DNA of 23,073 nt from a virus. Numbering within the stretch: position 1 is the first letter of the stretch; each line of letters starts with the position of its first letter. The notes under the pieces are model-generated. The model made no database searches and was not told where the DNA came from. It worked only from the letters and a program-made list of their open reading frames with translations. The position numbers and the translations under genes are program-made. Location: IMG/VR virus record IMGVR_UViG_3300028800_000318, positions 1-23,073 of that record. One strand, written 5' to 3'. Positions 579 through 4,361 of the stretch are shown here, piece by piece.

Positions 579-1450
579 GGATGCTGTCCCTGTTCAGTGG
601 CGTCGGCGGCATAGACCTGGCGGCACAATGGGCGGGGATTGAAACGGTGGCGTTTTGCGAGATCGACCCGTTTTGTCAGAAGGTGCTGCGAAAGCATTGG
701 CCGGACGTGCCGATATTCCCTGATATAAAGAAACTGACCAAGGAGGTGCTTGACGATGCAGGAATCGGAAGAATTGACATTGTGGCCGGCGGATTTCCTT
801 GTCAGCCTTACAGTGTTGCCGGGAAGCGACGAGGCAAGGAAGACGACCGTCACCTCTGGCCGGAAATGCTCCGCATTATATCCGAAACAAGGCCCGCTTG
901 GGTTGTTGGTGAGAATGTTGCTAACTTCGTCAATATGGAGCTCGACAAAGCGTTATCTGATTTGGACAGTATCGGCTACACCTGCCAAACGTTTATTATT
1001 CCGGCTTGTAGCGCAGGAGCCGACCACGAGCGGTATAGATGCTTTATTGTGGCCAACTCCAACTGCCAACAAGCAGAGCAGCAATTGCTCGGATATGGCG
1101 AATGTGGTAGACAGCAAAGGAAACCCCTGGAAACCAGGGAAGAAACCATACGACAAGAGGACGGGACGGCAAGTAACGACAACGATTCACGATTTTATCA
1201 GATTTTTACCAACGCCAACAGCAAGCGACGGGAGTCACCCGAGAGGCCCGGCATCCCAACAATACGACCTACCGAGAGCGATCAAGGACTTATATGGGAA
1301 AGACCTCATCCCGAACCCGGCGTTCATCGAATGGTTCATGGGATACCCAACAGGATACACCGACTTAAATCACTCGGAAATGCCGTAGTACCCCAGCAGA
1401 TATACCCAATATTCGCTGCAATAGCGGCGATAGAAGGAGGTACACCATGA
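569..1450 (+). CDS. DNA (cytosine-5-)-methyltransferase, Dcm/phage type
   Basis: Transfers a methyl group from S-adenosylmethionine to C5 of cytosine in DNA, most likely protecting phage DNA from host restriction. Motifs in order: FSGVGG (I, residues 9-14), GFPCQP with catalytic Cys78 (IV), GENV (VI, 114-117), HERYR in the place of QRRER (VIII, about 153-157), and a C-terminal LKSLGNAVVPQQIYPIF (X). At 293 residues it is a compact family member with a short, polar target-recognition region (about 165-255). ATGs at 569, 575 and 581 are all usable; 575 overlaps the leader stop and is the likeliest reinitiation site. The TGA overlaps the next ATG (1447). A second long gene lies inside it in the +1 frame. 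Methyltransferase identity is sure; the target sequence is unknown. Confidence 0.93.
   Translation: MSMRMLSLFSGVGGIDLAAQWAGIETVAFCEIDPFCQKVLRKHWPDVPIFPDIKKLTKEVLDDAGIGRIDIVAGGFPCQPYSVAGKRRGKEDDRHLWPEMLRIISETRPAWVVGENVANFVNMELDKALSDLDSIGYTCQTFIIPACSAGADHERYRCFIVANSNCQQAEQQLLGYGECGRQQRKPLETREETIRQEDGTASNDNDSRFYQIFTNANSKRRESPERPGIPTIRPTESDQGLIWERPHPEPGVHRMVHGIPNRIHRLKSLGNAVVPQQIYPIFAAIAAIEGGTP
740..747 (+). promoter_or_regulatory. Internal strong ribosome binding site inside the methyltransferase
   Basis: AAGGAGGT lies within the methyltransferase coding sequence, eight bases before ATG 756. That ATG opens the long +1-frame reading frame, not the methyltransferase frame. A perfect SD at ideal spacing inside a gene is the best direct evidence that the embedded frame is translated. 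Confidence 0.7.
756..1388 (+). CDS. Overprinted +1-frame gene inside the methyltransferase ('WPTPTA / EWFMGYP' type protein)
   Basis: A 210-codon frame lies wholly inside the methyltransferase, shifted +1, with its own perfect SD (740-747). TTG 750 is a less likely start. Its product has LWPTPTAN (98-105) and LPTPTASD (151-158) modules, a KPYDKRTGRQVTTTI segment (130-144) and NPAFIEWFMGYPTGYTDL near the C-terminus (187-204). From memory, phage proteins with repeated WPTPTASD blocks ending in 'NPxWVEWLMGFPxGWTDL' are common hypothetical proteins near Dcm-type genes, so this frame looks like a recognised family. Across the target-recognition region this frame looks more protein-like than the methyltransferase frame. 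Function is unknown. It could be an accessory or recognition factor, or a shadow frame that is recurrent because the methyltransferase is conserved. Confidence 0.55.
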   Translation: MQESEELTLWPADFLVSLTVLPGSDEARKTTVTSGRKCSALYPKQGPLGLLVRMLLTSSIWSSTKRYLIWTVSATPAKRLLFRLVAQEPTTSGIDALLWPTPTANKQSSNCSDMANVVDSKGNPWKPGKKPYDKRTGRQVTTTIHDFIRFLPTPTASDGSHPRGPASQQYDLPRAIKDLYGKDLIPNPAFIEWFMGYPTGYTDLNHSEMP

Positions 1451-3278: not shown

Positions 3279-3506
3279 GTGACAAGTGAGCGAAAATGTC
3301 CGCATTATAACGGTGATTTGTCGAGATATGAAGACCCTGTTGCTGTAAAGGAGATCCAGCGCCTGCAGGCCGAGGTGGAGGCGGCTCAAATAAAAATAGC
3401 AACTATGAAAAATTGTAGTTTTTGTAAATTTCATTTTGTGAATTATGTTGGTAGGTGTGGTGGATGTAAGAACCATAGTAAATGGGAATTTGGACAGGAG
3501 GATTAA
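3279..3506 (+). CDS. Small double-CxxC protein with coiled coil
   Basis: Seventy-five residues from GTG 3279, directly abutting the previous stop. A short coiled-coil segment (KEIQRLQAEVEAAQIKIATM) leads into CSFCKFHFVNYVGRCGGC, a four-cysteine zinc-ribbon-like site. The role is unknown. It is one of several Cys-rich microproteins in this operon. Confidence 0.6.
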   Translation: MTSERKCPHYNGDLSRYEDPVAVKEIQRLQAEVEAAQIKIATMKNCSFCKFHFVNYVGRCGGCKNHSKWEFGQED

Positions 3507-3509
3507 GTG

Positions 3510-4361
3510 ATGGGTAAATGTTATTTTTGCGGGACTGAATCCAATCTAAACAATAGAGGTGTATGTAGTCGGTGCCACGTTATAAAATCTGAATCTCGCG
3601 AAGTTATAAATAATTATCCGCTTAATGGTTTTTGTAAAGGTGCTGATTTAGGCGATGGAAATTTTACTGGTTGCTCTTGCGATTGCCCTGCGTGTGAGGA
3701 TGCGTATAACCGCGCCCTAGCCGCCGAAACAGCGCTTGTTTCGCTCACTCCCGGCGGCAGCGAATTCTGCAACGATATAGAGGCGTGTGTAAAGTGGATT
3801 AAGTTTAAGCATGGACATCTGTCCAGACGGATTATCACGGCCATCAAGATGCAGGAAGCCGCTGAAACTGCACTGGCCGTTGAACAGGCTAAACTTTTTA
3901 CACAACAGGACAAAAACTCAGAACTGGAGCAGCAACTTTCCGAGCGGGACAAAGAGGTGGAGATAAAGATTATCAAAGAGTCGGAAGTTGAGCTTTTGGA
4001 TGATGATATAAACGAAGATGATAAGGTTATATCGCAGCTTATATGTGAATGCACGAACTGTCATTGGAGATTTATCGGTGATTGCTATAGATTTGGTTAT
4101 GGGTATACATCACAAGGAACACAAATACCTAATTATTGCCCAATGTGCGGCGGTAAAATTACTGACGACATAGCCAATGACGCCCTTACCACTTCCGCCA
4201 GCGGGGAGCGGGATAAGATGCGGGAACTACGGCAAACGGTTCTTGATGCGTGTGGTCATACCCACAACTGTAAGGATTGTAACGCTGAATGTGGATGTAG
4301 AGAGTGCAGGACAATAGCAATAGCCGCCCTGGGCCGCGAGGGGAAAGAGGGGAAAACGTGA
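3510..4361 (+). CDS. Multi zinc-knuckle protein with coiled-coil centre (Ead/Ea22-like layout)
   Basis: About 283 residues. N-terminal CYFCGTES...CSRC knuckle, then GCSCDCPAC, an acidic coiled coil (about 110-170, many E/K/Q), a second ribbon CTNCHWRF...YCPMCGG, and a Cys-rich tail CKDCNAECGCREC. The layout resembles lambda Ea22-like accessory proteins, but function is not established. ATG 3510 (SD ACAGGAGGATTAAG) is preferred over GTG 3507. Its final bases overlap the next gene (GTGA at 4358-4361). Confidence 0.6.
   Translation: MGKCYFCGTESNLNNRGVCSRCHVIKSESREVINNYPLNGFCKGADLGDGNFTGCSCDCPACEDAYNRALAAETALVSLTPGGSEFCNDIEACVKWIKFKHGHLSRRIITAIKMQEAAETALAVEQAKLFTQQDKNSELEQQLSERDKEVEIKIIKESEVELLDDDINEDDKVISQLICECTNCHWRFIGDCYRFGYGYTSQGTQIPNYCPMCGGKITDDIANDALTTSASGERDKMRELRQTVLDACGHTHNCKDCNAECGCRECRTIAIAALGREGKEGKT

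Follow-up and report, generated by a model that had tools for sequence, protein, structure and literature searches.

The window analyzed here, the whole stretch of 23,073 nucleotides, is a 23-kb phage fragment in which terminase, portal, and head genes lie downstream of a methyltransferase locus. At this locus, all of whose features are on the plus strand, an ORF at positions 756 to 1388 (ATG start, 210 amino acids) lies in the +1 frame wholly within an ORF at positions 569 to 1450, just as the original prediction had it. We refer to the protein encoded by the outer ORF as alpha and to that encoded by the inner, overprinted ORF as beta. Alpha is the putative catalytic subunit of a C5-cytosine methyltransferase, with motifs I to VIII and X and without motif IX. 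The beta ATG is preceded by a perfect Shine-Dalgarno sequence, AAGGAGGT, at positions 740 to 747, which is eight bases 5' of the start codon, as had also been noted. Upstream of alpha is a 10-codon leader ORF (MLKSIAARCP; positions 546 to 578) with a strong Shine-Dalgarno sequence of its own, AAGGAGGA, at positions 533 to 540. The leader TGA overlaps an ATG at position 575 (ATGA), so alpha may be translationally coupled to the leader and start there; position 575 is probably the alpha start, since L010, a near relative, starts with that Met. An imperfect direct repeat (19 nt at 95% identity and 14 nt without mismatch; positions 530 to 571 and 1431 to 1469) flanks the alpha/beta cassette. The repeat consists of the ribosome-binding site and first codons of the downstream gene (1447), duplicated 5' of alpha, which looks like the trace of a cassette insertion at the start of that gene.

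Beta begins with an N-terminal domain (positions 756 to 1043; pattern TSGxKC..KMLL..S.W.ST..LTWK..LLFQL) that overlaps alpha motifs IV to VIII. The blocks WPTPTA (positions 1050 to 1067) and LPTPTA and the C-terminal end NPAFIEWFMGYPTGYTDL are present as originally described. Module 1 (TANKQSSNCSDMANVVDSKGNPWKPGKKPYDKRTGRQVTTTIHDFIRFL; positions 1062 to 1208) is a candidate target-recognition module, module 2 (positions 1218 to 1304) lies 3' of the second PTP block, and a motif-IX-like end, LIPNPAFIEWFMGYPTGYTDL, occupies positions 1305 to 1367. Over this stretch alpha has a linker between motifs VIII and X (positions 1064 to 1342), which is predicted to be disordered and is a passenger of the beta frame, and then the motif X helices (LKSLGNAVVPQQIYPIF; positions 1352 to 1438), for which pLDDT is 75 at first and rises to between 93 and 95. 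The original prediction held that methyltransferase motifs VIII and X coincide with the WPTP and EWxMGxP motifs of the embedded protein. This is correct for motif VIII, in that FIVANSN (alpha) and WPTPTA (beta) are identical bases read in two frames, whereas EWFMGYP (positions 1329 to 1349) lies ~26 nt 5' of GNAVVPQ (positions 1376 to 1396) and overlaps the lead-in to motif X rather than motif X itself.

Beta is a conserved protein-coding gene

The embedded ORF is real and far beyond chance expectation. The longest +1 open stretch in the window is 216 codons, compared with ~87 expected from synonymous-codon shuffling, and 0 of 300 shuffles reach 216. Among 117 alpha homologs, each compared with synonymous shuffles of its own gene, there are 644 stops in the +1 frame versus 1054 expected; the +2 frame of the same homologs has 1932 versus 1995 expected. 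This is the opposite of the frequent +1 stops that were named beforehand as the pattern that would speak against the prediction. When a conventional Dcm query was run against viral contigs, only one relative was found, and genome loci were therefore used as the control set. The 19 conventional C5-methyltransferases in this set, mostly from the same bacterial genomes as the beta-type loci, contain no beta matches and show no depletion of +1 stops (401 versus 377 expected). Their longest open +1 fraction is 0.18 (0.19 expected), compared with 0.78 (0.36 expected) at beta-type loci, mostly of those genomes. The long open +1 frame usually begins within alpha and ends ~60 to 125 nt before the alpha stop.

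Codon periodicity was examined in 40 pairs with nucleotide-guided alignments that favor neither frame. From motif VIII to the beta stop, there are 610, 234, and 256 differences at alpha positions 1, 2, and 3, respectively, so variation is greatest at the third codon position of beta. In the alpha-only 5' DNA of these pairs, the corresponding values are 255, 175, and 917, and in the alpha tail the peak of variation is back at alpha position 3. Thus, from the first WPTP block to the beta stop, substitutions track the codon periodicity of the inner frame and not that of the methyltransferase, and the methyltransferase frame alone does not explain them. The window and its closest relative, L010, show the same pattern from motif VIII to the beta stop (46, 15, and 21 differences in 87 codons; Fisher P = 2e-6 versus alpha-only DNA), with 66% identity in beta and 45% in alpha. 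Pooled position rates in the beta N-domain region are 0.22, 0.15, and 0.37, compared with 0.12, 0.09, and 0.44 in alpha-only DNA. It had been suggested that both frames are constrained at the same bases; this holds over motifs IV to VIII, but elsewhere constraint is mostly handed along, from alpha to both frames, then to beta, and then back to alpha.

In L099 (and L193, on the same contig), alpha stops just 3' of motif VIII. Window module 1 and its L099 counterpart are identical at 33 of 49 residues, and the differences fall 12, 10, and 35 at beta positions 1, 2, and 3 (49 codons), despite ten alpha-frame stops inside the L099 module. Only the beta frame explains this conservation. The Shine-Dalgarno sequence before the beta ATG is not significant in the window alone (P = 0.17), because the alpha Lys-Glu-Val codons supply it, but over 102 loci internal starts with a Shine-Dalgarno sequence are enriched relative to shuffles (mean, 4.0 versus 2.6 nt; P = 7e-11), which supports a conserved internal start. 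Of 26 genome loci that were identified through alpha and played no part in building the beta model, 24 have beta in the +1 frame, and the other two are conventional enzymes. These 24 loci span Bacillota, Alphaproteobacteria, Desulfovibrio, Ignavibacteria, and others. Based on the stop depletion, the periodicity, and the L099 module, we conclude that the inner frame is a gene.

Sequence and predicted structure of alpha and beta

Alpha matches Pfam DNA_methylase at 1.4e-44, but the match ends at profile position 220 of 324, and its match to TIGR00675 ends at position 186 of 329. The motifs of C5-cytosine methyltransferases are found in order, namely, I, IV (PCQ), VI (ENV), VIII, and X (GGFPCQPYS, GENV, RYRCFIVA, and GNAVVPQ). 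In an AF2 model, pLDDT is >90 for most of residues 1 to 165 and 93 to 95 for residues 271 to 290, while residues ~171 to 260 are mostly <55 (mostly 39 to 54 in the linker). In a structure search, ~168 of 327 positions of this model matched HhaI and HaeIII methyltransferases, at 1.6 to 2.0 Å for most of the best hits, and the matching part corresponds to the large domain. In ordinary C5-methyltransferases, the part missing from alpha is the small domain, which carries target recognition and motif IX (PMC3404938). The truncated profile matches, the predicted disorder of the linker, and the match to only half of HhaI together show an alpha polypeptide that, as modeled, has no DNA-recognition domain, no motif IX, and no ordered structure from motif VIII to motif X. 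Motif X (GNAVVPQ) is retained, as originally claimed, but not all of the catalytic motifs are in the host frame, since motif IX is absent from it and the beta frame instead carries a motif-IX-like element. The lack of motif IX in alpha points to a two-subunit enzyme.

Window beta has no Pfam, NCBIfam, or PADLOC match; it matches PHROG 1008 (1.3e-27), which is labeled "DNA methyltransferase" and is also matched by all 59 of the 59 betas scanned. A tblastn search found beta in 70 phage records, all at <60% identity (30 to 42% among the matches listed) and 67 of them at a query coverage of at least 80%. The original prediction placed such relatives near Dcm-type genes of phages. They are indeed in many phages, but within Dcm genes and not beside them: in the annotated regions that we opened, the beta match is inside a methyltransferase-sized CDS, in the +1 frame. 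Two Paenibacillus phage records annotate the inner ORF, one as "g55 internal gene" and the other as "g62 internal gene" (SHELLY_56 in KP296795 and LILY_63 in KP296792). The labels given to beta are only "DNA methyltransferase" or "hypothetical protein," and in many other records it has no annotation. In hosts, beta was found in 1 of the 61 relatives searched, so beta is accessory and rare in hosts.

The consensus of 59 betas consists of the N-domain (TSGxKC..KMLL..S.W.ST..LTWK..T..LLFQL), at least one PTP block, and the end LNPxxVEWLMGFPxGWT, in which E and M are invariant among 50 aligned sequences. When a profile of the beta end is compared with conventional C5-methyltransferases, it falls on motif IX (RxLTxREAARLQSFPDxF). 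This match has a P value of 0.008 but a probability of only 5%, so the assignment of the beta end as motif-IX-like rests on position and pattern together with a weak profile match, which support it without proving it. The AF2 model of beta alone is of low confidence (pLDDT, 63.5; pTM, 0.33) and has no fold match in the PDB, and neither the beta profile nor the motif-IX profile finds a methyltransferase among PDB sequences. Thus, the search of translated positions 756 to 1388 that had been proposed yielded PHROG 1008 and phage relatives but no structure.

Several loci have additional features. The beta ORF of L113/L114 (1843 to 3649) extends ~700 nt past the alpha stop, and more WPTP blocks follow its motif-IX element, which puts modules outside the overlap. 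L145 and L184 are two alpha/beta pairs close together in one genome region, and each has beta in the +1 frame. In a Paenibacillus bovis plasmid (L160; 2196 to 3884), the alpha and beta ORFs look intact and are largely unannotated, and a second beta-like segment (3437 to 3878) follows them in the third frame. In three Lacticaseibacillus phage loci (L003, L004, and L009), a second CDS lies directly 3' of the alpha/beta gene (a "putative methylase" in Lc-Nu).

Beta modules and the placement of motif X

We split 212 betas at the PTP blocks, which gave 490 modules of ~35 residues each, with 1 to 5 modules per beta (1 to 6 with a looser parse). There are 157 module pairs that are at least 75% identical while alpha motifs I to VIII are no more than 60% identical; in 116 of them, the two modules differ in position or belong to strings that differ in length. 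In addition, 721 pairs of loci have one module in common while other modules differ. Window module 1, for example, is 76% identical in L090, where alpha is 53% identical, and 68% identical in L099/L193 (L099 alpha, 33%); its identity in L090 and L010 is 76 to 79%. These sequence comparisons show that beta modules are shuffled between loci, and in this they behave like exchangeable specificity units. Because short units are exchanged independently, as in the multispecific enzymes of Bacillus phages, we infer by analogy that the modules are target-recognition units.

Among ~290 alpha loci, beta is in the +1 frame in ~278, and the motif-IX-like element is in the +1 frame at nearly all. Motif X is in the alpha frame in ~235 loci and in the beta frame in ~26, proportions that are not frequencies in nature, since many loci were found by beta queries and some are duplicates. 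In this second layout (e.g., L099 and L121), motif VIII is directly followed by the end of alpha, and the modules, the motif-IX-like element, and motif X come in canonical order in the beta frame. At eight inspected loci of the second layout, stops accumulate in the alpha frame past the end of alpha, which suggests that at loci with motif X in alpha, the frame is kept open in order to reach it. That motif X can be in either frame implies that the alpha and beta products form one enzyme. A few alpha genes (L035, L040, L142/L176, and L195) have an apparent frame break or stop, and in two of them, L040 and L142, the beta frame takes over motif X. Gene decay or sequencing errors could explain these cases, or they could be intermediates between the two layouts.

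A proposed two-polypeptide methyltransferase and its known counterparts

We consider it likely that the locus encodes a two-polypeptide C5-cytosine DNA methyltransferase in which beta is the overprinted recognition subunit and carries the motif-IX-like element. Alpha would provide the catalytic half (motifs I to VIII) and the closing helix (motif X), and would bind AdoMet, flip the cytosine, and transfer the methyl group. Beta would be translated from its own Shine-Dalgarno sequence and ATG inside alpha; its N-terminal domain probably docks on alpha, its two PTP-delimited modules probably read the target sequence, and its motif-IX-like element would orient the recognition domain. The alpha frame would be open through the recognition region mainly to let translation reach motif X, with the sequence there set by beta. 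Since modules are exchanged between phages, the enzyme could acquire a new specificity with its catalysis intact. Phage DNA methylated at host restriction sites would resist cleavage, which is probably the benefit. The alpha-beta complex, recognition by the modules, and the anti-restriction role are what we infer from these comparisons. They agree with the recognition-subunit role offered in the original prediction; for its alternative, a separate self-protection partner, we found no evidence. Points against the proposal are the low-confidence model of beta alone, its lack of a fold or profile match in the PDB, and the weakness of the motif IX match.

It is unlikely that beta is a real protein with another task, such as a regulator of alpha, an anti-restriction protein, or a decoy. 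Its conserved N-domain of unassigned function and its lack of detectable homology to solved structures would fit such a role, but another task would leave alpha without a recognition domain or motif IX, and it does not account for the motif-IX-like element at the beta end, for modules that act as exchangeable specificity units, or for the movement of motif X between frames, which implies a joint enzyme. Less probable still is a programmed +1 frameshift near motif VIII that fuses alpha motifs I to VIII to the C-terminal half of beta, with beta not made separately. In the second layout (L099 and L121), such a shift would yield a complete enzyme with modules, motif IX, and motif X in canonical order, but in the common layout it would lose motif X. 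Moreover, the first alpha stop past motif VIII ranges from immediate to ~90 codons, and thus there is no fixed shift site, while the beta frame upstream of the putative junction encodes a conserved N-domain and internal starts with Shine-Dalgarno sequences are enriched. The lack of a fixed junction and the presence in beta of its own start and N-domain disfavor this explanation. Finally, although the bases shared by FIVANSN and WPTPTA mean that conservation of motif VIII gives some shadow similarity, we reject a chance ORF or noncoding shadow of methyltransferase motifs and codon usage as scarcely credible, given the stop depletion against synonymous shuffles, which conventional enzymes do not show, the third-position periodicity of the beta frame, and the beta-frame homology of L099 across ten alpha-frame stops.

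Beyond the two-polypeptide enzyme itself, we tentatively raise a broader possibility, which we judge slightly less likely than not. The family may be a large, widespread class of phage C5-methyltransferases whose whole recognition apparatus is built combinatorially from ~35-residue modules, strung together in the +1 frame of the catalytic gene. The leading frame would switch along a single DNA stretch, any exchange of modules would have to leave neither frame interrupted, and one methylated target sequence would be added or changed by each module. If the recognition role is true, then the specificity subunit has been overlooked in the annotation, and perhaps in the testing, of many "orphan" phage methyltransferases, and the module strings would offer a ready set of parts for cytosine-methylation specificity. 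Annotation pipelines usually dismiss long same-strand overlaps, but for this family of several hundred loci there is direct evolutionary evidence of dual coding. The alpha/beta family would also be a clean system for studying how two proteins share one stretch of DNA.

A close known counterpart is M.EcoHK31I, which is known as one enzyme of a restriction system rather than as a phage family with shuffled modules. Its beta polypeptide, too, is encoded in an alternative frame inside alpha, and the two polypeptides are of similar sizes to those here (309 and 176 amino acids). In this Escherichia coli enzyme (YGGCCR; Lee et al. 1995, described in PMC3404938), the larger polypeptide has motifs I to VIII and X, the smaller one has motif IX, and the recognition domain is predicted in the larger polypeptide. 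Compared by motif distribution only, the window would be similar, with motifs I to VIII and X in alpha and an element that is motif-IX-like, by position and a weak profile match, in beta. However, the recognition-like modules are here in the smaller polypeptide, beta, and this difference counts against our proposal. In M.AquI (CYCGRG), motifs I to VIII are on one polypeptide, motifs IX and X are on a second, and the split lies within the variable region (PMC3404938). The window does not have this distribution, since its motif X is in alpha; only loci of the second layout do (L099, L121, and ~25 others), and they differ from M.AquI in that beta overlaps alpha in the +1 frame and has an N-domain and PTP modules. 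In temperate phages of Bacillus, multispecific C5-methyltransferases (Trautner et al. 1996, cited in PMC12707154) have arrayed recognition domains in one polypeptide. Each such phage enzyme has several exchangeable recognition units and protects against many restriction enzymes. The alpha/beta loci would resemble them in having such units, but here the candidate units are in a separate, overprinted subunit.

Given the motif splits of M.EcoHK31I and M.AquI and the alternative-frame subunit of M.EcoHK31I, the principle of the two-polypeptide enzyme is already known. Likewise, beta ORFs are already clustered and partly annotated, as PHROG 1008 and as the internal genes of the Shelly and Lily records, which are the same beta ORF. 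A literature search on the overlap and on PHROG-type descriptions found nothing directly on this arrangement and no analysis of the function or overlap of beta. What is new compared with these systems, as far as the literature was searched, is the evidence that hundreds of loci in phages and prophages are dual coding, together with the passing of constraint between frames, the two motif X layouts, and the shuffled modules.
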